A stretch of DNA of 64,000 nt from Mycobacteriales bacterium (GTDB taxonomy: Bacteria; Actinomycetota; Actinomycetes; DATLTS01): assembly GCA_035533475.1 (NCBI GenBank), contig DATLTS010000020.1:1-64000 (forward strand). Direction: 5' to 3'. The translations under genes were made by a program, and so were the position numbers. The notes under the pieces were generated by a model, which was not told the DNA's origin, ran no database searches, and worked only from the letters and a program-made list of their open reading frames with translations. This document shows positions 12,773 through 28,714 of the stretch, one piece after another; the first letter of the stretch is position 1; each line of letters opens with the position of its first letter.

Positions 12773-13131
12773 GGGGGTGACAGGTTTCGACTTCGGATGT
12801 TGATGCAGGGGAAGCGGGCCGAGGAAGGCGACGATGATCTCGTTAACCACCCGTCGCACAACAAATAAGCGCCAATAACAACGCGCACGCTCTCGCTGCC
12901 TGATAGGTAGCTAGGGCTGTCAGCCCGGGATGCTCCCGACCCGGAATCTGGCATCGACAGGGAGCTCACCGGAAGACCCGGCTGCGGGGTCGTCCGGAAC
13001 ATCTCACAGCAGCTGGGCCCGTCACCGGCTCGCCTGCGAGACCGGTGGGGCCGAGAAAAGCACAGCAGGATGCGCCCGGAGAAGCCCTGTTTTAATGCCG
13101 AAGGACGCGGGTTCGATTCCCGCCACCTCCA
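12773..13131 (+). ncRNA. ssrA: Transfer-messenger RNA
   Basis: The 5' end (GGGGGTGACAGGTTTCGACT) pairs with the 3' acceptor CACCTCC (13124-13130), and a T-arm GCGGGTTCGATTCCCGC precedes it. Discriminator A is at 13131; the CCA end is not encoded. The tag frame reads GCC AAT AAC AAC GCG CAC GCT CTC GCT GCC TGA at 12871-12903, giving ANNNAHALAA. The LAA end is the usual protease signal. The tag is short, at ten residues. The 3' end is the apparent integration site of the island to its right. Confidence 0.95.
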
Positions 13132-14710
13132 CATGATGTGACCCATTACGAACCGGTGTCCCGTTGGCCCGGTCTTGTGAGGGTTTCGATAGTTGCCCGT
13201 CCGGCATGGGGACTCTGTAGAACGGGTGCGCCTGCCGGTCCGGGCCGATGTCGACGCGGTCGATGAGGGCGCGCAGGAGTTGCTTGATGGTGTCGCGGGA
13301 GCCTTCAGCGACGGCTTCTCGGATGGCGGTCCCGATGGCGTGCAGTTCGTCGCGGCTGGGCAAGGTGGGTGTGGTGGTGGCGAGTTGGACGGCGAGTTGG
13401 TCGCGGTGGGCGTTGAGTTCGTCGCGGCGGGCGGCTAGTTCGGCGACTCGCGGTGCGCACAGCGTGTCGGGCATGCTGCCGGCTTCGAAGGCTTTGAGGT
13501 AGCGGTCGATCGCGGTGGTGGCCTCGCGCAGTTGTGCCTCGGTGCTGGCGAGTTCGGCTTCGATTTGGGGTCGTTCGTCGTCGTGATGCCGGTAGGCACC
13601 GGTGATGGCTTCTTCGAAGAGGTCGACGTCGTCGTAGAGGGTGAGCAAGCCGGCGACGACGGCTTCTTCGAGGTCTTCGGCGGGGACGGGTTGGCTGTGA
13701 CAGCCGCGGGCGCCTCGGACCTGGCGGGTGCGGCAGGCGTAGTAGCGGTACTGGCCGCCCCGTCCGTGCGCGCTGACGCCGAGGTAGGCGCGGCGGCAGG
13801 TCAGGTAGCGCAGCAGCCCGGTGAGCAGGTAGTCCGAGGTGCGGGGGGTCGCCGCGGCGGCGTCGGCGCCGCGTTCGTCTAGCAGGGCTTGCGCGGCGGC
13901 GAAGGTGGCCGCGTCGACGATCGGTTCGTGTTTGCCGTCGTGCACCTGGTCGTCGTGGCGGATCTTGCCGACGTATGTGGGGTTGCGCAGCAGCCGCAGC
14001 ACGGCCTGGTTGCTCCACAGCCGGCCGTTGCGGGAGCGCCGGCCGGTGTCGTTGAGCCGGTGCGCGATGGCGGTGGCGCCAAGGCGCTCCTCGACGTAGG
14101 CGGCGAAGATGGATTGCACGACGGCGGCTTCCTCGGGATCGGGGAGCAGGGTTTTGCTGGCCGGGTCGTGGGTGTAGCCGTAGGGGCCGGGGCCGGTGAG
14201 CCACTCGCCGCGGGCGGCCTTGCGGGCGAAGCCTTTGGTGATCCGGTCGATGAGCAGACCGCGTTCGAACTCGGCGAAGATGCCGAGCAGTTGCAGCAGC
14301 ATCCGACCGACCGGGCCCTGGGTGTCGATCGGTTCGGTGGCCGAGCGCAGCGCGAGCCCGAAGCCGTCGAGGTCTTCGACGATGGACATCAGCCCGACGA
14401 TGGAGCGGGTGAGCCGGTCGATGCGGTAGACCAGCAGCACGTCGAACTAGCCGGCCCGGGCCGCGGTCAGCGCGGCCTGCAGGCCGGGGCGCGCCAGGGT
14501 GGCGCCGGAGGCTTGGTCGACGAAGCGGTGGCTGATGACGTGGCCGGGCTGGGAGGCGACGAAGGCGTCCAGTCCGCTGGCTTGGGCTTCCAGCGAGTAG
14601 GGCTGGTTGACCTCGTCGGTGGAGATCCGGGTCAAGGTGGCGACCCGCACCGGCCCGGGCCCGGCTAGGCTCGGCCGGGCCGGTGCTCGGCGTCGGGTGT
14701 TGGCTGGCAT
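13022..14710 (-). pseudogene. Large serine recombinase interrupted by TAG
   Basis: The N-terminus (ATG 14710) has the resolvase domain VATLTRISTDEVNQPYSLEA with the nucleophilic serine. It reaches TAG at 14449-14447 and continues in the same frame as FDVLLVYRIDRLTRSIVGLM, with a recombinase domain, a zinc ribbon (LTCRRAYLGVSAHG, YYACRTRQVRGARGC) and a C-terminal coiled coil. Apart from the amber codon the frame is intact, about 562 codons. The last ~36 codons read antisense through the ssrA 3' end, so the original stop may have been lost or supplied by the target. It would have catalysed integration at ssrA. Confidence 0.82.
13109..13127 (+). repeat. Left copy of 19-bp direct repeat (putative attL core)
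   Basis: GGGTTCGATTCCCGCCACC lies in the T-arm and acceptor of ssrA. An identical 19-base copy is at 24586-24604. A serine recombinase gene runs up to the left copy, which is the expected layout of an element inserted at the 3' end of ssrA. T-arm sequences are common in tRNA genes, so the match alone is not proof. Confidence 0.5.
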
Positions 14711-14982: not shown

Positions 14983-15265
14983 CGCTTCGGTGGTGGCGGT
15001 CCGGCCGGCACGGCCGGCTCGGCGTCGAGGCGGCCTTCGACCCGGGCCAGCCGTTCCCGCACACCGCCGACGGCGACTCGACCCGGCCGATCGCGGTCTC
15101 CATGCGCCAGCCTGCCTGCCCGAGCAGGTTCACGGTGGCGGCCAGCCCGGCCAGGTCGGTGCGTTCGCCTTCCCGCCGGGCCGCGCGGGCGTTGGTGTAG
15201 GCGAGCAGCGCGGCCAGTGTGGGCGGGGTGGCGCCGACCGCGGCGGCGAGCACGGCCGCGCTCAT
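14979..15265 (-). pseudogene. Small membrane-anchored element protein, frameshifted
   Basis: It starts at ATG 15265, overlapping the methylase stop (ATGA). It has an N-terminal hydrophobic segment (AAVLAAAVGATPPTLAALLA) and then a charged helix up to WRMETAIGRV. After that the natural sequence is in another frame (GVRERLARVEGRLDAEPAVP, then PPPPKR) and stops at 14979, overlapping the next gene's GTG. The restored start/stop overlap supports a one-base indel near 15070. Function unknown. Confidence 0.6.
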
Positions 15266-16097
15266 CGCCGTCTCCACACCACGACGTCCTCGTGCCCGAC
15301 GACCTGGCGGGGCAGGCCGTTGGCGCGGGCCCGGCGGACCTGGTCGAGGGCGAAGAACGACACCCGGGGGACGAGCGCGTCGTCGCGCAGCCCGGCGAGC
15401 AGCGCGACGTTGCGCTCGTAGAGCACCAGCCCGGCGTCCTCGCCGACGCGGGCGAGCAGGCCGGGCAGGTCGACCAACTCGCCGGCCCGCCAGTACGGCC
15501 GCACCGTCATCGCGACCACCCCGCCGGGACGCAGCAGCTTGGTCGATCCGGCGAGCACGTCGCGCATCGCGGCGAGCAGCGCGCCGAGGCCGACGTGGGC
15601 GAGGTTGGCCGGGTCGCTGCTGTAGCGCCAGTGCGCCTTGCGCACCCCGGCGCCGGGGCGGGTGGTGACCTGGCCGTGCACGCTCGGTCCGTACGGTGGG
15701 GAGGTGAATACGAGCGCGGCGAGGCCAGCCACCGCCGGGTCGAGCAGTCCCGGCAGATGACGGGCGTCGCCGCAGACGACCTCACCGTGGCCGCTGGCGC
15801 CGTGCTCGCGGGCGCGCTCGACGTTGGCCCGGGCCAGCTCGGCCCACACCGGCTCGTACTCGACACCGATCCCGTCCCGGCCGAGGTGGACAGCTTCGAC
15901 GACGGTGGTACCGATCCCGCACATCGGATCGACGACGAGGTCCCCTGGCTTGGTGTAGGCGGCGACGACGGCGCGGGCGATGGCCGGCAGCATCTTCGCC
16001 GGGTGCCGGCCGGAGACGGCCAGGTAGCGCTCGGCCCGTTGGGCTCGGGCGGTGTGCTGGGCGGTGCCCACACCGAGATTCCTAGCTCGACGCTCAC
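15262..16097 (-). pseudogene. SPPY-type DNA methyltransferase, frameshifted near N-terminus
   Basis: The catalytic core is intact: SAM motif LVVDPMCGIGTTVVEA and motif IV LVFTSPPYGPSVHG, which suggest N4-cytosine or N6-adenine DNA methylation. The family start VSVELGISVWA comes from GTG 16097, overlapping the upstream gene's stop. The sequence then jumps frame to TAQHTARAQRAERYLAVSGR near 16066-16070, consistent with loss of one base. A shorter protein from an internal start would lack the first ~20 residues and might still be active. It is the second gene of the element operon. Confidence 0.7.
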
Positions 16098-16309
16098 CGG
16101 CCCACCGCCGCGCTCGGGCGCAGGAACGCGCACACGTCCTCGTGCACGACGAGGTGGGCGGGCTCACCACGGGCGCGGGCACGGCGAGCCTGGCACCTGT
16201 TGTGACCGCTACCGCACAGCGTCAGAGCAGGCCCCGAATCGAATCCCGGGGCGCCGCAGACGTCCGGGCGTTCATTCGACGATCGCCGGCGAGCCACCCG
16301 GCGTGACAT
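16094..16309 (-). CDS. Small hypothetical element protein
   Basis: A 71-residue frame ending at TGA 16094, overlapping the methylase start. The second half (CQARRARARGEPAHLVVHED, then VCAFLRPSAAVGR) looks conserved and protein-like; the first part may be non-coding. It is the first visible gene of the methylase-recombinase operon, divergent from the HEPN-like gene 10 bases away. The start is uncertain. Confidence 0.4.
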   Translation of the reverse strand: MSRRVARRRSSNERPDVCGAPGFDSGPALTLCGSGHNRCQARRARARGEPAHLVVHEDVCAFLRPSAAVGR

Positions 16310-16318
16310 TGTCGACCT

Positions 16319-17680
16319 ATGAGTCAGGCAGAGGAAGGGGCCGTGCCAGAACCGTTGGGTTGGCCGTTCGGTATGGGCGACGTGGCGGACGGACAGCCGG
16401 GCGCGCCAGAAGACTTGTGGTCGGGCCCGGGAACGGTGGAGCTACCGCCGGCGAAGCCAGGCGATCCCATGGTGGCTTATACCTCCAACATGACGCTTCA
16501 GAGGCGATGGTCAAGGGATGCCGATCTGCAACTCACATCAGTGGGAGATCAGCCCTGGACCGGCGGTCCTCGAGACACGAGCGGGCTCCCCAGCATCGAC
16601 GGAGGCACACTCGTTGACCCCACGTGTTGGCGGGTCTCCGGTCACGCGCCTACCACCCGGATATTCACGGTGAGTGAGGTCCTGCTTGGCGACACCAACG
16701 CTGTCGCCACGGCCGTCCGCTTCGGGCTCGCCAACTGGGTCCACTACGTCGGCGGCCCTGTCCAAACCGATACGCGGTCATACGCCTCGCGCCTTGAATT
16801 AACTGCTGGCGCGCACAGACTGCGCCTCGATCAGGTGGCAGACGATTGGACGCCCGACTGGCAAGAAGTCGGCTACAGAGCGGGCATTACTCACATTGGA
16901 GAACTTACTCGGGCGGACGGCACGGTCATGAGCTACGCCGAGGCCAGGGGGATGTTAGAAGCGATCTTCTTCTGGGCGAGCCTGTTGCGGGGGGCTTATT
17001 CGGCACCGATCACTGCCATTGGCCGCGGCCCGGACTCAGAGGCATTGTGGACGCAGCACGCCGCCTGGCACGTCGACCCCTGGTCGAACGATCATGGCGC
17101 TCTACCTTGGCCAATTGCAACCGAGCTTGACGAGTCCAAGCCGACCGTGGAAGCACTCGGTAGGTCGCTCAACAGGGTCGCCAAGCTATTGGAAGACGAG
17201 CAGTGGAAAGAGACGCTGGGTCGAGCAATCTTGTGGCTGTGTACCGCCAACACCGGCCAGACGGATGGCGACTTGATCCTTGCCCAGGCAGGACTAGAAC
17301 TGCTTGCCTACGTCATCGGCACGCGCCGGGGTCTTCTCACAGACGAGGCGTTTACGAAGCTCACTGCGGCCGACACGATCCAGCTGGCACTGACGACGCT
17401 GGGTATCTCTCTTGACATCCCCGTCGCAATGCAGCAACTCTCGACGTACGCAGCGGGTCGACAACTCAATGCTGCCCAGGCTGTCGCACAGATCCGAAAT
17501 ACGGTCGTTCATCCCCCGACGAGCCAGAAACAGCGGCACAAGGACCTGCGAGATCACCGGTTGAAAATCCAGGCCAAACGGCTGGCGTTGACACTTCTCG
17601 AACGTGCCCTTCTGAGGATCTGCGACTACGACGGTGCCGTCTGGGACCGTGCCGTTGGCCGAGCGACCGTGTCCTGGTGA
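16319..17680 (+). CDS. HEPN-like (ApeA-like) putative defence protein
   Basis: 453 residues from ATG 16319. The N-terminal half (about 1-260) is a beta-rich domain of unknown role, with RLELTAGAHRLRL. The C-terminal half is helical, with LAQAGLELLAYVIGTRRGLL and QIRNTVVHPPTSQKQR. RNTVVH is an Rx4H motif with a polar residue after R, as in HEPN ribonucleases. The layout recalls ApeA-type abortive-infection proteins, but I assign the family only tentatively. It converges on a TIR gene, and both sit in the ssrA island with lower GC than the flanks. RNA cleavage on phage infection is inferred, not shown. Confidence 0.6.
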   Translation: MSQAEEGAVPEPLGWPFGMGDVADGQPGAPEDLWSGPGTVELPPAKPGDPMVAYTSNMTLQRRWSRDADLQLTSVGDQPWTGGPRDTSGLPSIDGGTLVDPTCWRVSGHAPTTRIFTVSEVLLGDTNAVATAVRFGLANWVHYVGGPVQTDTRSYASRLELTAGAHRLRLDQVADDWTPDWQEVGYRAGITHIGELTRADGTVMSYAEARGMLEAIFFWASLLRGAYSAPITAIGRGPDSEALWTQHAAWHVDPWSNDHGALPWPIATELDESKPTVEALGRSLNRVAKLLEDEQWKETLGRAILWLCTANTGQTDGDLILAQAGLELLAYVIGTRRGLLTDEAFTKLTAADTIQLALTTLGISLDIPVAMQQLSTYAAGRQLNAAQAVAQIRNTVVHPPTSQKQRHKDLRDHRLKIQAKRLALTLLERALLRICDYDGAVWDRAVGRATVSW

Positions 17681-18050
17681 CGTCCAGCCGGGCGTAGTGC
17701 ACGTGATCGTTGGGGGCGGTGGCGAGGTGATCCTTTAGCGAGGGCCATTGACATGCGCGGGCGTTCAGGCCGTCGGACATTGTGGCTGGTCATTGCCCTA
17801 TCGGGTAACTGAACCCCACGGGCGGGGAAAACCGTGCCATTACGACGACGACGGTCTGTACCTACATGCTGCGGTGCTTGGAGTGGAGGTGCTTCGGGCC
17901 CCGGAGAGTACCTGCGTCGGCGCTCGCCGGGGGAACCGGGCTGAGCGGCTACCTGGCAGAACCGTCGCAGCCGGTCTCCGGCAGACCGGTAATTGATGAC
18001 GGCAGTTTCTCGGTCGCGCCGGCTGCTAGCACGGGAACTCTGGTGACTCG
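17681..18050. other. Gap between HEPN-like and TIR genes
   Basis: 370 bases between the 3' ends of two convergent genes. Short frames exist on both strands, but none has a recognisable motif or good start. No terminator hairpin with a T-run is seen. Confidence 0.4.
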
Positions 18051-18971
18051 CTACTCGGCCTCGTCGAACCGGAGGCGCTCGGCTATCTCGCGGATCTGTC
18101 GGTCGTGCTCGGCCGCGGCTTGCTCAGCGGCTTCGGCACGCGCGCGTTCGGCCCGCAGGTGCTGTGCAGTCGTTTCGTTGAGCTGCCGTACGACCAGCTG
18201 GAGCGTCTGGAGGTGGTAGCGCTCCAGTTCATCGATGGTCGTACTGTCGAGCACGATCCGATCGCCATGTACCGAGGCAATACCGGGCCGGTGCATGGAT
18301 GTCCACGCAGGCGGCGAGTTCCAAGCGTCGGCGAACCTCGCCGACCACACTTCAGGCGGGACTCTGTTGAGCACCAACGGAACCCGATAGAGCCCGCTGC
18401 CTCGCGTCACGTCGTTTCGCGGACGACCGACGCCCTCGGTGTCCACACCGACGATCCGGACCGGCTCGTCGTTACTCACGACTCGCGCTGCCGCCGTCCA
18501 ATCACGGCTACTGCGGCGGGCGCCGTGCCCAGGCGTTGGAGGTGCTGCGGTAAGCCCAAGATGCCGCGCCGCATCCTTGACAACTCGCACCGCGCAATGA
18601 TCGAGAGCCTCCGGGTCGAGTTGCAACCAATTCACGTCGGCGAGCGACGGCGGCATCGCGACGTCCGCAACGCGCAGTGGCAGCACCGTCACCCGCCGAG
18701 GGCGGCGCCGCAGTTGTTTGCTCATGGCTAGCGCCCTCTCCTTGCGGCACCAGTTCGACTCCACCGATGCCGGACTGACGAGTGCCGCGACAAAGTCGAA
18801 CTCGGCAATCGCTTCGGAGATCCGGTCGATGAGCGAATCGCCAATCAGCAATTCACCCTGGTCCAACCAGACCCGGGCCCCCGCCGCCTCAAGTGCCGCT
18901 GCCAACGCATGCGCGAGGCCGGCGTCCTCGTGCGCATAGCTGATGAAGATCGAAGGCTGCAGGTCTGCCAT
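18051..18971 (-). CDS. TIR-domain protein with extra C-terminal domain
   Basis: 306 residues from ATG 18971; a start at 18995 is possible. Residues 5-125 form a TIR domain: PSIFISYAHEDAGLAHALAA, DQGELLIGDSLIDRISEAIA and SPASVESNWCRKERALAM, where the Glu of NWCRKE sits at the usual TIR NADase position. A linker leads to a second domain (about 170-255: LYRVPLVLNRVPPEVWSARF, then MHRPGIASVHGDRIVLD) that I do not recognise. A coiled coil (about 265-300) ends the protein. NAD-depleting defence is inferred from the TIR family. A SIR2-like remnant lies directly upstream on the same strand. The gene ends with TAG. Confidence 0.8.
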   Translation of the reverse strand: MADLQPSIFISYAHEDAGLAHALAAALEAAGARVWLDQGELLIGDSLIDRISEAIAEFDFVAALVSPASVESNWCRKERALAMSKQLRRRPRRVTVLPLRVADVAMPPSLADVNWLQLDPEALDHCAVRVVKDAARHLGLTAAPPTPGHGARRSSRDWTAAARVVSNDEPVRIVGVDTEGVGRPRNDVTRGSGLYRVPLVLNRVPPEVWSARFADAWNSPPAWTSMHRPGIASVHGDRIVLDSTTIDELERYHLQTLQLVVRQLNETTAQHLRAERARAEAAEQAAAEHDRQIREIAERLRFDEAE

Positions 18972-19041
18972 ATCGTCACGGTAACCGGCCGCCACTCGAG
19001 ATGTTCGGTGATTTGTCCTGACTCGACAGCGTCCGCGGCAC

Positions 19042-19319
19042 TCAGCCCGTCCACCCGGTCACCCTGCCCTCCAGCAGCGCGCTGATCCGCCGGAGTCGGT
19101 TCAATACCTGCTCAAGGTTGCGGCCGGCGAGCACCGCACCGGACACGGATTGCTGCGCCGGCACCAGCCCGTCGGAGACGCGCTGCTCCAGGCCGGAGAC
19201 ATCCGGCAGGCCGCACGCGCGGGCTGCGCCCCTCCGAGTAACGCGCACACGTGACGGGAGTGGGCGGAGAGCTTCGCGCTCAAGCCGTTCGCGAAGGCCA
19301 CGACGTTGTGCGAGCCCAC
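19042..19319 (-). pseudogene. SIR2-like N-terminal fragment, frameshifted
   Basis: The frame from GTG 19319 gives NVVAFANGLSAKLSAHSRHV and CALLG. After one extra G the family continues in the next frame as ARACGLPDVSGLEQRVSDGL and GRNLEQVLNRLRRISALLEG, ending at 19042. HVCxLLGAGAxxACGLPDVxGL with NLExxLxRLRRI is characteristic of bacterial SIR2-like proteins, where GAGA is the NAD-binding loop. Only about 92 codons remain, so the gene is truncated. It lies 70 bases upstream of the TIR gene in the same direction. Confidence 0.6.
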
Positions 19320-20012
19320 GCATAGAAACTAGTGCCTGCTGAACACGCCCGCCTCGGCTCAGTCCAACCTCGCTACGGAGAGGATGAGCATCCGACGCTG
19401 TCCGAGGACATCGCTCGCCACCTTGGCGGTGGGACGTTGCGTGAGCGGACGCGCGCTGTCCGTGATCCGTGCGGGCGTGGCCCGGCATGTTCACTGACGT
19501 GAGAATCGGCGGGTGACCAGCGGTTTCGCCCTCGTCGGCGTTGCGCATCGGATCCACTTCCAGCCGCAACCGGTCCCCGCCATCCCGATCGTGTGCTCCA
19601 CCCATGCCGTACTCCCTTCTGCTCACGACGCTCGCCACCGGCACCATGCCGGCGGCGCAGGCACACCGGCGGACGGCTCGCCCGGCGGCGTGGTGACGCA
19701 GGCAGCGCGAAGCCGCGTTCCGGGATCCGGCCGCGACACGCGCCACGACACTCGTTCGGTTACCTCGGTCAGCCGCCCTCGCGGCGTAGCTCGGTGGTTA
19801 CACGGGGACGCTGGACCGTCGATGGACGCTCCATCTCGCCGCGAGGTCAAGGGCGTCCTATAACGGTTTGGTAACGGCTCCCCCGACTCGGCTGGCGCCC
19901 GGTCACGGTTTACGGCCCGCCGGGTCTTCTACACGACATAGCTGTTTCACCGGCGCAGCGCTGGGGCGGCCCTCATGACGCTGCGCTGGTGCTACCGGAG
20001 GGGAGAACTCTG
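19320..20012. other. Unassigned stretch upstream of the secreted-protein cluster
   Basis: About 690 bases with no frame I can support. Some open frames exist on both strands but look like shadow coding. The right part (19850-20000) is relatively AT-rich (TATAACGGTTTGGTAACGG) and probably holds the promoter of the secreted protein at 20013. Confidence 0.35.
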
Positions 20013-20555
20013 ATGGGCTGGACTCGGAGGATGAGCGCGATCGGCGTCATTGCGACGGTCGCCGTCTTTGCGTGCTCAGTGGCGGTACTGCCCGCATCGG
20101 CTTCGACTGGTGATACCGCCACGCCTCCGCAAGGCGGCAGCCTGACCGGTAGCACTGTGAGCCTGATTGTCCCGGGGCTTTCCGCGACTTGCACTGTGTA
20201 CCAGCAGGGTCATGGGTTGGTCACGGTGTACACGAACGCGAACGTTCAAGAGGAGTCCCTGAACAACTCCTGGTCTACCTGTGGTTCGTTCCTAACGCGG
20301 CTGGTGACATTCGCCGAAGTGGAAAACCTCAACCCTGTGTACTACCGCGCTGCGTCCAATTCGAAGACAGGGTCCGGAGATGGTCCGGTGTCTGTGGTTG
20401 CCAGTACCAACGTCCCAGCGACCTTCTACGGCCCCTCGTTGCGATTCACCTGGACCACGAACGCATATTTCTCGAACGGAACATCGCTCAGAATCTGCCA
20501 ACAAACCACGACGAACGTGGCCTTGGAAGCTACTTCATATACCGCCTCGTGTTGA
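20013..20555 (+). CDS. Secreted protein of unknown function
   Basis: 180 residues. ATG 20013 follows an excellent ribosome site (GGAGGGGAG, 19997-20005), so I prefer it over the upstream start at 19989. The signal peptide is clear: basic start, IGVIATVAVFACSVAVL and an ASA cleavage near residue 30. The mature part is rich in Ser, Thr and Asn, with four cysteines (SATCTVY, WSTCGSF, LRICQQ, YTASC), suggesting two disulphides. First gene of a four-gene secreted cluster. No homologue recognised. Confidence 0.72.
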   Translation: MGWTRRMSAIGVIATVAVFACSVAVLPASASTGDTATPPQGGSLTGSTVSLIVPGLSATCTVYQQGHGLVTVYTNANVQEESLNNSWSTCGSFLTRLVTFAEVENLNPVYYRAASNSKTGSGDGPVSVVASTNVPATFYGPSLRFTWTTNAYFSNGTSLRICQQTTTNVALEATSYTASC

Positions 20556-20605
20556 TGATTCGTCTCAGCCGTGGGAGGTCTTTACGGCCATAGAAAGGTT
20601 CGACT

Positions 20606-21157
20606 ATGAAACGAAGGATCTAGGCCTTGGTGGGCGTTGCGTCGCTGCTCGTCGCGGCCGCCTGTGGTAGTTCGCTTGATACCGCCAAGGTCACCACTGA
20701 CAAGAGTTCATACAACCTTGGGCAACCGGTGGTTTATACATTGCAAGTCATCGCGGCGGGGACCCCGGCGACAATCACCTACTACGCCACCGCGAGCGAC
20801 ACATGGCAAATCAGTTGCTACTCGATCCTGTTCATACACGAGTGCAACAACGCAGAATTCGACTTCGCAACGAACGTGCCCATTGGCCCCATGACAGTCC
20901 CCGGCTTCGGGGGGCAGATTGTCCTAACTGTGGCCGAGCACTCCGGGCCTCATGAAGCTGGCGAGGACATCACGTCATGTCAAGTCGACAGCGGGACGCA
21001 GAAATGTGTGGTGAGCGGAAACAGCACGGATCAAAGTGCCTTCGATGTATCCTCGACTGGCATTGGTGGAGGATCCGTGGTCCAGTTGGGTGTGCACGTT
21101 TCTACCTCGGGGGAAGCACGGGTGACCTCGAGGCCTGGGCGCAGTTCGGGGAACTAG
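20606..21157 (+). pseudogene. Lipoprotein gene with TAG at codon 6
   Basis: A ribosome site (GAAAGG) precedes ATG 20606, which reads MKRRI and then TAG (20621-20623). The same frame continues as ALVGVASLLVAAACGSS, a lipoprotein signal peptide with its lipobox cysteine, and a ~155-residue mature domain (TTDKSSYNLGQPVVYTLQVI) to TAG 21157. Restart at TTG 20627 or GTG 20630 would give a signal peptide without its basic start. So it is either a nonsense mutant, suppressed, or weakly expressed. The mature part looks beta-rich and Ig-like. Function unknown. Confidence 0.65.
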
Positions 21158-21158
21158 C

Positions 21159-22046
21159 GTGACGAAGAGGGACCGGGCGGTCGGCTTCGCCGTCGCGATG
21201 TGCGGGGCGCTTTTGCTCGCCGGTTGTGCCTCATCGTCGGGCACCAAGGGGGGAGCGACCCCCGGCACCACGGCTCGGCCTGCACACTCGTCCGTTCGGG
21301 GCGGCAGCAAGGTCGCTCAATCGGCGACGGCTTCCCAGTTGGCGGCGCCGGATGGAACGAACGGATCGGGCAATTCGTCGCAGGCATGTTCCTCCCTTCT
21401 CTGTGATCGCGTGATCGCCCCTTCGACCACAGCGGACATACACGGTTGGGCTGAGGGATTCCTAGGTCAGGGATGGGCACGAGCCACGGGTGCGGAATCA
21501 GGTTCGTTCGGTGTTCCACGGTTTTGGAACAGCTCTTATTCCGAGGCGACACACGAAGTGGACTTCTCGGGGACCAACTCCAATGGCTCGTCCATGGGAT
21601 TCGGCATCGAGTTGAATAATGCTGGTGCCGCTCTTTTTGAGGGCTTCTTTGTCACCGTGCCCTATTCGCCTCCGCAGGGTGGCGGCGGGTCAATCACCTA
21701 TACGTTTACGACTGTGGCAGCTGCTCGTTTCCTAGGCGCTCCGGTCGGCTCGAACTGGCAGTCCCCAACGCAAGACCACCGATATCTCGTCACCCTCCAG
21801 CACCCGAATAGTGCGGAGTGGGAAATGTCAATTCGGCCAAACCCCGGAGGCCCGGGACCACAGCCCGAGTTGACCAGCGGTTCTTTAAGTCTCTCAACCT
21901 CAAGTGTTCGCCCGCCGTGGTCCGAGGTTCAGATGCAACTGACAGCTCGCTCGCCGTATGGGCTGGTGCAGGGCTCGGTAAAGCTAAGTCGACATAGCGG
22001 CCCGTTTACCTACACCACGAAGACGTCCTCGTCTGCCAGTCCATAG
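21159..22046 (+). CDS. Putative lipoprotein
   Basis: 295 residues from GTG 21159, one base after the previous stop. The signal peptide MTKRDRAVGFAVAMCGALLL is followed by the lipobox LLAGC. A Ser/Gly/Thr-rich linker (residues 24-75) leads to a beta-rich domain (HEVDFSGTNSNGSSMGFGIE). The C-terminus is Ser-rich. It should be anchored on the outer face of the membrane. Same strand and tight spacing indicate an operon with its neighbours. Function unknown. Confidence 0.72.
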   Translation: MTKRDRAVGFAVAMCGALLLAGCASSSGTKGGATPGTTARPAHSSVRGGSKVAQSATASQLAAPDGTNGSGNSSQACSSLLCDRVIAPSTTADIHGWAEGFLGQGWARATGAESGSFGVPRFWNSSYSEATHEVDFSGTNSNGSSMGFGIELNNAGAALFEGFFVTVPYSPPQGGGGSITYTFTTVAAARFLGAPVGSNWQSPTQDHRYLVTLQHPNSAEWEMSIRPNPGGPGPQPELTSGSLSLSTSSVRPPWSEVQMQLTARSPYGLVQGSVKLSRHSGPFTYTTKTSSSASP

Positions 22047-22070
22047 TGTTCACTTCAGCAGGGTGGGCCA

Positions 22071-22508
22071 TTGCGGCGCGTGCGGGGTAGGCGGGGGCGT
22101 TGGCTTGCGGGAGCCGCCTTCCTACTATTGGTCATTTTTGGCGGGCTGATCCTGCGCACGGTCTTGCAGGATAACCAGCGGGCGTCTATTACTGCGAACA
22201 CCCTTATAGCGTTGGCTCGGCACGCAGGCCACGTGCAAGTCGTCGCGAACCAACACTATGTTGGCACCAATAGTGATGGCCTGTCTGGGCCGGGGGGACA
22301 ATATTGCTTCTTCTTTGCGAACGTAAGATTCCGGACATCGACATCGCGCGCGAGCCTAATTGACGGGGTAAACGCGCAGATCCGCCAGGGCCTTGCCAAA
22401 GCCGGGTACCTGGTCAGCGCCGCCGCCGTGCAAATCGCCCCTGACTTGATTGAGCTGGAGGGCGTCGGCATTGGATCTGGTGGTCGCTTCGACCCGCGAT
22501 GCTGGTAG
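22071..22508 (+). CDS. Membrane-anchored hypothetical protein
   Basis: 145 residues, probably from TTG 22071. A basic start (RRVRGRRGRW) precedes one strong helix (LAGAAFLLLVIFGGLILRTV). The extracellular part has Cys in GQYCFFF and at the C-terminal RCW. Last gene of the secreted cluster, 24 bases after the lipoprotein. No family recognised. Confidence 0.6.
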   Translation: MRRVRGRRGRWLAGAAFLLLVIFGGLILRTVLQDNQRASITANTLIALARHAGHVQVVANQHYVGTNSDGLSGPGGQYCFFFANVRFRTSTSRASLIDGVNAQIRQGLAKAGYLVSAAAVQIAPDLIELEGVGIGSGGRFDPRCW

Positions 22509-23164: not shown

Positions 23165-23330
23165 GCCGGCGCCGTCCCGGGCAAAGTGCCTGGTCAGGGG
23201 CACCGGCGCTGCCGGTAGTGGAAGTGCGGTTTCCCGCCACTGTGGTGTGACCACCGTTCCCGCCACTGGCGACTTGGGTATCGTGATCAATACTTGAGTA
23301 TTGTGCACAGTACTACGGTATCGTAGCTCG

Positions 23331-23954
23331 GTGGACGTTTCTGATCCTGGTCGTGCGCTCGCGACCGGCTTGACCATGCCGATCTTGCGGGCGATGTCGT
23401 CCCGCTCGAACCCGACGACCGCGGCGCAGATCTACCGGGTGATGCAGCAGGGGACGGAGGCGGGGGTTCGGCGGGCGATTGAGCGCCTAGCGGCTCAGGG
23501 TGTGGTGCTCGGTGAGCCGGTGGGGGATCGGACGGTCTATTCGCTCAACCATGACCACGTCCTCGACCGGGCCATCCGAGCGCTGCTGCGGGCGCCCGAG
23601 GAGCTGCCGCGACGGCTGCGCGTGGAGCTGGCCGACTGGAGTATCCAGCCGGTCTCCGCTGCCTTGTACGGTTCGGCGGCACGCCGTGACGGGGACGCGG
23701 ACAGCGACATCGACATCCTGCTCGTGCGTCCGGTCCTGGGTCGGTCCGCGACACGGGACCAGTGGGTGCGGCAGGTGCATCAGCTGCGTGAGGCGGTGCG
23801 CCGTTGGACGGGTAACCGCGTTCAGATCACCGACCGCTCCAGAACGACGCTTCGGCGGTTGGCCGCGGCGCGCGAGCCGATCGTTGACCAGTGGCTCACC
23901 GATGCAGTTGTGATTGCCGGCCAGCCGCTGGATGAGCTTGTTGACGTGGCATGA
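23331..23954 (+). CDS. MNT-type nucleotidyltransferase (TA-like antitoxin)
   Basis: 207 residues from GTG 23331. The N-terminal winged helix (TAAQIYRVMQQGTEAGVRRA) is followed by a minimal nucleotidyltransferase domain with the full catalytic signature ALYGSAARRDGDADSDIDIL (G-S, then D-x-D). MNT proteins commonly pair with HEPN proteins as type VII toxin-antitoxin systems, in which the MNT enzyme AMPylates the HEPN toxin. The stop overlaps the ATG of the HEPN gene (ATGA). The promoter region holds small palindromes (AATACT-TG-AGTATT, about 23291-23304) that may be operators. Confidence 0.8.
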   Translation: MDVSDPGRALATGLTMPILRAMSSRSNPTTAAQIYRVMQQGTEAGVRRAIERLAAQGVVLGEPVGDRTVYSLNHDHVLDRAIRALLRAPEELPRRLRVELADWSIQPVSAALYGSAARRDGDADSDIDILLVRPVLGRSATRDQWVRQVHQLREAVRRWTGNRVQITDRSRTTLRRLAAAREPIVDQWLTDAVVIAGQPLDELVDVA

Positions 23955-24398
23955 GTCCGGCTGGGCGGCGCCAACGATGCAATACCAACGACGCCCGATT
24001 GCGGCTCGCGCATGCCCGGGCGTACCTGGAGGACGGCGAAGCTGATAAGCGGCGACCCGGCGAAACCCGAGGAGGTCGACTTCAACCATGTCGCAGCCGG
24101 TAATGCTGTGCTCGCGGTGATCGCGGCCGGTAACGCGCTGTGCTGCCGTCTGCTCGGGGAACGAGCGCGCGGTCAGGACCACCGGGAAGCCGTGCGCCTG
24201 CTCGAGCAGGTCAGGTTCGGCCCAGGGGCGGCGACGGAGCAGACGCGCCGAAGCCACGCCTTGGCTGCCGCACTGGCCACCGCCTTGGACCTCAAGGACG
24301 ATTCCCACTACGGCACCCTCATGGTCGGCGCGGCAGAGCTGCGTCGCCTGATCCGTGCCGCGGACAAGCTGGTATCCGCCGCAACATCGGTCATGTAA
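23951..24398 (+). pseudogene. HEPN partner of MNT, one-base frameshift
   Basis: It starts as MSPAGRRQRCNTNDARLRLA and ARAYLE. A single extra G near 24031 then shifts the frame, and the native frame ends at a TAA about 20 codons later. The HEPN sequence resumes in the next frame (TAKLISGDPAKPEEVDFNHV, CCRLLGERARGQDHREAV, LKDDSHYGTLMV) to 24398. Copy 2 at 28241 shows the unshifted reading, which proves the indel. A shorter product from ATG 24012 (128 residues) would keep most of the HEPN core. Confidence 0.75.
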
Positions 24399-24585: not shown

Positions 24586-24604
24586 GGGTTCGATTCCCGC
24601 CACC
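24586..24604 (+). repeat. Right copy of 19-bp ssrA repeat (putative attR core)
   Basis: GGGTTCGATTCCCGCCACC is identical to 13109-13127 in ssrA. The T-stem and acceptor around it do not form a complete tRNA or tmRNA end, and a short run of GCCACC-like triplets follows. It is the candidate right end of the island. Confidence 0.45.
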
Positions 24605-24669
24605 GCTACCGCCACCGCCACCGACGAATTGCGACAAATTATTTCCGCCAACTTATCGCTACCCGGCGA

Positions 24670-27985: not shown

Positions 27986-28492
27986 CGGTTCGGATTGTGT
28001 GACATCAGGACCACATGTGATCATGGCCTGAGCATGGCGGTCGCAAATTTGTCCGGTTCGGCGGTGTGACCAGGGTGTGGCCTCGGGCCACACGGCTGTG
28101 GGGTCTGGTGCCAGGTGCCTGGTCAGGTGGTGTCGCTGCCGAGGCCGGAAAGCGGTTTCCCGCCGCTGTGGTGTGACCACCGTTCCCGCCACTGGCCGCG
28201 TGCGCATCGGCCGGCCGCTGGATGAGCTTGTTGAGGTGGCATGAGTCCGGCTGGGCGGCGCCAACGGTGCAACACCAACGGCGCCCGATTGCGGCCTGCG
28301 CACGCCCGGGCGTACCTCGAGACGGCGAAGCTGATCAGCGGCGACCCGGCGAAACCTGGGGAAGTTGACTTCAACCATGTCGCAGCGGGTAATGCTGTAC
28401 TCGCCGCGATCGCGGCCAGCGACGCGCTGTGCTGCCGTCTGCTCGGGGAACGAGCTCCCGGTCCGGACCACCGGGAAGCCGTACGCCGGTTC
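27986..28492. repeat. Copy 2 of MNT/HEPN module, MNT gene deleted
   Basis: This repeats the upstream region of the MNT gene (to about 28200) and then jumps directly to its last ~11 codons (28206 onward), followed by the first ~84 codons of the HEPN gene. The MNT body, equivalent to about 23270-23917, is missing. Confidence 0.7.
28075..28093. repeat. Perfect GTGTGGCC-N3-GGCCACAC palindrome
   Basis: GTGTGGCC TCG GGCCACAC lies at the position equivalent to 23146-23164 in copy 1. It shares its core with the hairpin at 24467. Candidate operator of the module. Confidence 0.5.
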
Positions 28493-28714
28493 GCGCCCCG
28501 ACCACGGTCGGGTAGTCGGGCCGCGTTTCCCTACCTATGCTCGGGGTCGTGGGCAGACTCCTCTACTCGGCGATCGCATCGCTGGACGGTTACGTGGCGG
28601 ACGACAACGGAGACTTCCAGTGGGGCGCGCCCGACGAGGAGGTCCATGGCTTCGTCAATGACCTCGAACGGCCCATCGGCACGTACCTGTACGGCCGGCG
28701 GATGTACGAGGTGA
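28241..28714 (+). pseudogene. Truncated HEPN gene of copy 2
   Basis: It reads MSPAGRRQRCNTNGARLRPA, ARAYLETAKLISGDPAKPGE and CCRLLGERAPGPDHREAVRR without frameshift, then runs into unrelated sequence at about 28492. The real HEPN part is ~84 residues. The remaining frame is a shadow of the DHFR-like gene, with which it overlaps. The C-terminal LKDDSHYG block of the family is absent. Confidence 0.7.

Follow-up and report, generated by a model that had tools for sequence, protein, structure and literature searches.

ApeA, a single-gene system, is a protein of ~460 aa in which an N-terminal domain (ApeA_NTD1, PF18862) is followed by a helical C-terminal domain (HEPN_Apea, PF18739) carrying an RN-x3-H motif. 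The ApeA-NTD1 domain has been described as mostly beta, poorly conserved, ~300 aa long and fused to HEPN (PMC3710099). Thoeris combines ThsA, a SIR2-SLOG protein, with the TIR protein ThsB, and in bSEFIR (PADLOC PDLC03957) a TIR/SEFIR head is joined to a C-terminal region. SEFIR has been placed among the NAD-depleting defences (PMC12774641), and a narrow protective activity of SEFIR has been found in S. thermophilus (PMC12322248). In SIR2-HerA, the SIR2 protein is encoded together with HerA (DUF87) and KTSC genes.

The window, that is, the whole stretch of 64,000 nucleotides of a Mycobacteriales bacterium (contig DATLTS010000020.1) that was analyzed here, carries a HEPN-like gene, a TIR-domain gene and a piece of a SIR2 gene side by side (Table 1). 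The HEPN-like and TIR genes are, in the reading that we consider likely, two intact single-gene abortive-infection systems that are independent of each other and lie in a decayed ssrA hotspot beside the debris of a third system.

Table 1. Coordinates of the main features of the island (positions in the window)
Feature	Position	Strand	Remarks
ssrA (tmRNA) gene	12773..13132	+	ARAGORN; Rfam RF00023; last 24 bp form one island end
Large serine recombinase (integrase) pseudogene	13022..14710	-	In-frame TAG stop; Resolvase profile split
DNA methyltransferase-like gene	15262..16182	-	Partial N6_N4_Mtase profile match (Pfam, PADLOC)
Putative ApeA-like HEPN protein, YopA-like family	16319..17680	+	453 aa; divergent N-terminal domain and predicted C-terminal helical HEPN domain; E327, R393-N-x3-H398-P399
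TIR protein	18051..18995	-	TIR head aa 16-127; conserved C-terminal domain aa ~174-312; bSEFIR-like architecture; ATG start possibly 18971
SIR2 gene remnant, SIR2-HerA type	~19022..19319	-	About residues 1-100; frameshifted
Second copy of ssrA 3' end	24586..24609	+	22/24 identical; other island end

The HEPN-like protein had been singled out in a preliminary description of this DNA for a candidate HEPN Rx4H motif, RNTVVH, which occupies residues 393-398. In an alignment of 16 family members, E327, R393 and H398 are unchanged in 16/16, N394 and P399 show one change each, and 14 members retain H192, which lies in the N-terminal part. Because R393 and H398 are invariant throughout these 16 members, RNTVVH is not a chance match and can be taken as a real active-site-like motif. 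The 15 relatives, with roughly 20-35% identity, come from genomes of the same class and phylum, from plasmids and from phages; they include YopA of SPbeta, actinobacterial proteins, and proteins encoded on plasmids of the cyanobacteria Oscillatoria and Planktothrix and of Methylophaga, so that homologs are located both on plasmids and in a prophage. Searches of Pfam, of PADLOC and of the PDB with the protein gave no match; NCBIfam yielded nothing significant and PHROGs one weak match. HEPN models of Pfam matched no scanned member of the family, and the HEPN_Apea and ApeA_NTD1 models gave 0 matches for the window protein and none in the members scanned.

The same description had likened this gene to ApeA-type abortive infection, and profile-profile comparison supports the analogy. 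Sequences gathered via PF18739 and plasmid searches provided a set of 12 ApeA proteins, against which the 16-member family aligned by hhalign with a probability of 80.9%, an E value of 1.2e-5 and a score of 51 over 289 columns; 100 column-shuffled ApeA profiles reached a maximum score of 25. The RN-x3-H motifs fall in register, and part of the N-terminal region is also aligned. With only two ApeA sequences the comparison was not significant. The architecture is likewise comparable, as both are single proteins of similar length in which an N-terminal domain precedes a helical C-terminal domain with the motif. However, identity to ApeA is ~12%, and the motifs differ in detail, the family having RNxxxHP and a YxG...VPW tail, and ApeA having RNYxxHY. 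The protein is called ApeA-like rather than ApeA because the ApeA models of Pfam do not match it, and the reading that we favor is a putative HEPN RNase with a distant likeness to ApeA; its family would then be an uncatalogued ApeA-like variant. A sequence search for solved structures of ApeA relatives gave none. An AlphaFold model computed from two sequences (the protein and one relative) is poor, with a mean pLDDT of 41; its C-terminal third is predicted to be helical (278-434) with the motif between two helices, pLDDT being below 50 over most of this part. Additional scans of viral sequences supplied no further relative that could be used for the model.

The family member from Bacillus phage SPbeta, YopA, shares 22% identity with the window protein (E 4e-10) and has the same invariant E, R and H. 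Unlike the window gene, yopA is phage-borne and is followed by yopB, a small HTH gene. A literature search found nothing on SPbeta yopA, and the function of YopA is not recorded there. The adjoining yopB, and the occurrence of family members singly, often in mobile DNA and with no constant partner, would suit a view in which the HEPN-like gene serves a mobile element as a toxin or regulatory HEPN gene and has no defence role, as may be the case for YopA itself, leaving the TIR gene alone as a defence gene. We consider this unlikely, as the profile similarity to ApeA extends into part of the N-terminal domain and no conserved antitoxin-like neighbor is seen in the 15 loci of the family.

The TIR gene is as first described, a TIR domain (TIR_2, E 6e-27) with extra C-terminal sequence. 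This extra sequence holds a conserved domain of ~135 aa without a Pfam name that is common to 65 loci from Actinomycetota, Bacillota, Bacteroidota, Chloroflexota, Planctomycetota and others, and that is 31-51% identical to its relatives. Mean identity of the relatives to the window protein is 43% in this domain and 26% in the head; therefore, the heads of the family appear either to evolve faster or to have been swapped. The catalytic-type residue E86 is invariant in a 41-member alignment, in which the C-terminal domain is conserved as well, and a structure model of the protein (pLDDT 81) has bacterial TIR domains as its best PDB matches, at E values of about 1e-6.

GVGYE is a motif of most heads in the TIR family; four relatives that have it were scanned, and all of them match the bSEFIR model of PADLOC with 139-255 bits (E 7e-41 to 4e-76). 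These relatives share the C-terminal domain of the window protein, which itself joins a TIR head to a C-terminal region as bSEFIR does. However, the head in the window is a plain TIR_2 domain without GVGYE, and its bSEFIR match is 36 bits, over residues 8-75 only; the plain heads of the window protein and of its nearest relative, from Cellulomonas, lie at 28-36 bits. Taken by itself, the C-terminal domain gives no match to the bSEFIR model. Because its match is so weak, the window head may act differently from bSEFIR heads. Judged from sequence, the window protein is probably a defence-type TIR whose kin are bSEFIR-like, and not a Thoeris protein. A second TIR_2 protein is encoded elsewhere in the same genome (L122; G000:C8:12108-12371).

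Upstream of the TIR gene, a truncated SIR2-like N-terminus had been reported on the same strand. Both its strand and its truncation are borne out. The piece also contains frameshifts: roughly residues 1-100 of 386 are spread over two or more frames, and it ends some tens of bases from the TIR start. Over 58 aa it is 53% identical to the start of annotated SIR2 family proteins from Methylocystis and Paraburkholderia plasmids, each of which is followed by a gene for an ATP-binding protein and a KTSC gene; the Paraburkholderia locus, when checked, proved to consist of SIR2_2, DUF87/HerA and KTSC. In contrast to such SIR2-HerA loci, only the first 100 or so residues are left here, and no HerA or KTSC partner was found beside the remnant. 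The piece is thus read, from its sequence, as what is left of a dead SIR2-HerA type gene, not as Thoeris ThsA.

A variant of Thoeris, with the TIR protein as ThsB and the SIR2 protein as ThsA, had been brought to mind by the two genes lying side by side, although a mismatch had also been noted. The adjacency stands, with TIR and SIR2 sequences on the same strand and a few tens of bases apart, and so does the mismatch. Because the SIR2 piece is dead and of SIR2-HerA type, its relatives being encoded with HerA and KTSC, and because no SIR2_2 protein was found in a search of the whole genome, the Thoeris reading fails; the kin of the TIR protein, moreover, are bSEFIR-like and lack a recurrent SIR2 neighbor. 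We give a Thoeris variant practically no credence.

The HEPN-like and TIR genes are both intact and converge on opposite strands of one island, with 370 bp between their stop codons. This adjacency had suggested an unlisted defence pair, which could be pictured as one two-gene system in which, for example, a TIR product (a signal of the cyclic ADP-ribose type) activates the HEPN RNase. However, convergent genes do not form an operon, and the two families were never found together elsewhere: the HEPN-family profile matched in 0/65 TIR-family loci and the TIR profile in 0/15 neighborhoods of the HEPN family, although some of these loci stop at contig ends, which limits the weight of the absence. 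An obligate HEPN-TIR pair was accordingly rejected. In addition, ApeA needs only one gene, and the alignment of the HEPN family with it extends to part of the N-terminal domain. A two-gene system would find some encouragement in Cellulomonas, where the nearest TIR relative has a HEPN-superfamily DUF4209 gene immediately upstream, but is in our view highly improbable; the alternative that had been named alongside it, a hotspot housing two independent systems, is to be preferred.

No partner gene recurs across either family, except in closely related Firmicutes elements. Weak single-segment matches, to the UvrD gene in L002 and in L008-L011, were discarded as chance. Defence genes found near TIR relatives comprise AbiG (in Enterococcus), GmrSD, DUF7380-DUF4209 and ApeA, which is what clustering in defence islands gives. 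In Cellulomonas hominis (L022:4972-6843), a DUF7380-DUF4209 gene of the HEPN superfamily lies directly upstream of the closest TIR relative, and in Staphylococcus hominis (L081:8010-8936), an ApeA-type gene (HEPN_Apea and a portion of ApeA_NTD1) is located two genes downstream of a TIR relative that is bSEFIR-like. Because HEPN-superfamily genes of other kinds thus lie near TIR relatives twice, a loose functional partnership is possible.

The label of an ssrA island, which had been attached to this region, is correct because the tmRNA gene is present together with a second copy of its 3' end. The two copies of the 24-bp repeat (13109-13132 and 24586-24609; 22/24 identical) enclose ~11.5 kb; no such second copy is expected in shuffled sequences. 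At its 3' end the integrase ORF reads into ssrA. This gene has an in-frame TAG at 14447-14449, and the Resolvase profile of Pfam is split (4-61 and 66-145) across two abutting ORFs; since the integrase carries the stop codon, the element is probably immobile. Third-position GC is 70% and 75% in the two putative defence genes, compared with 88-91% in the flanking FtsX, S41 and MFS genes. The att repeats, the broken integrase, the SIR2-HerA remnant and the lower third-position GC all point to a decayed, immobile defence hotspot.

Other parts of the island show further features. Its middle (19989-22508) is filled by successive ORFs of lower G+C that are predicted to be secreted or lipoprotein-like and that have no significant Pfam match. 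Near its far end, a gene resembling a nucleotidyltransferase (23301-23954; weak match to NTP_transf_2) is followed by a small gene (24012-24398) with a HEPN-like R-x-QDH motif, and this couple (23301-24398) looks like an MNT-HEPN toxin-antitoxin pair. About 290 bp of the pair, together with stretches upstream of it, recur outside the island at 28036-28496 with 79-92% identity, without an intact first gene.

A mechanism can be proposed for the two independent systems, for both of which we infer the enzyme activities, what triggers them and their role in defence. The N-terminal part of the HEPN-like protein would sense infection, by analogy perhaps through a nucleic-acid breakdown product, whereupon the HEPN domains would pair and, as expected from the family, cut cellular RNA via R393 and H398. 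In the TIR protein, the C-terminal domain would detect an infection cue or drive assembly, and the head would then deplete NAD, as the conserved Glu and the bSEFIR relatives suggest. The remnant is consistent with a SIR2-HerA locus that was lost, its 3' side having presumably been overwritten by the TIR gene.

Overall, the pairing of HEPN and TIR genes probably has no meaning other than as a sign of turnover in an ssrA hotspot, and each gene is of interest for its own family. The HEPN gene leads to a family that was missed by the defence catalogue searched and that has one member in a classic B. subtilis prophage. In the TIR family, one conserved C-terminal domain under more variable heads offers a handle on what bSEFIR-like proteins sense. 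We tentatively suggest, with slightly less than even confidence, that the YopA-like proteins, including that of SPbeta, may be an unrecognized and widespread single-gene family of HEPN abortive-infection proteins distantly related to ApeA and that, separately, the TIR/SEFIR C-terminal domain may be an undescribed sensor module joined to different TIR-type heads.
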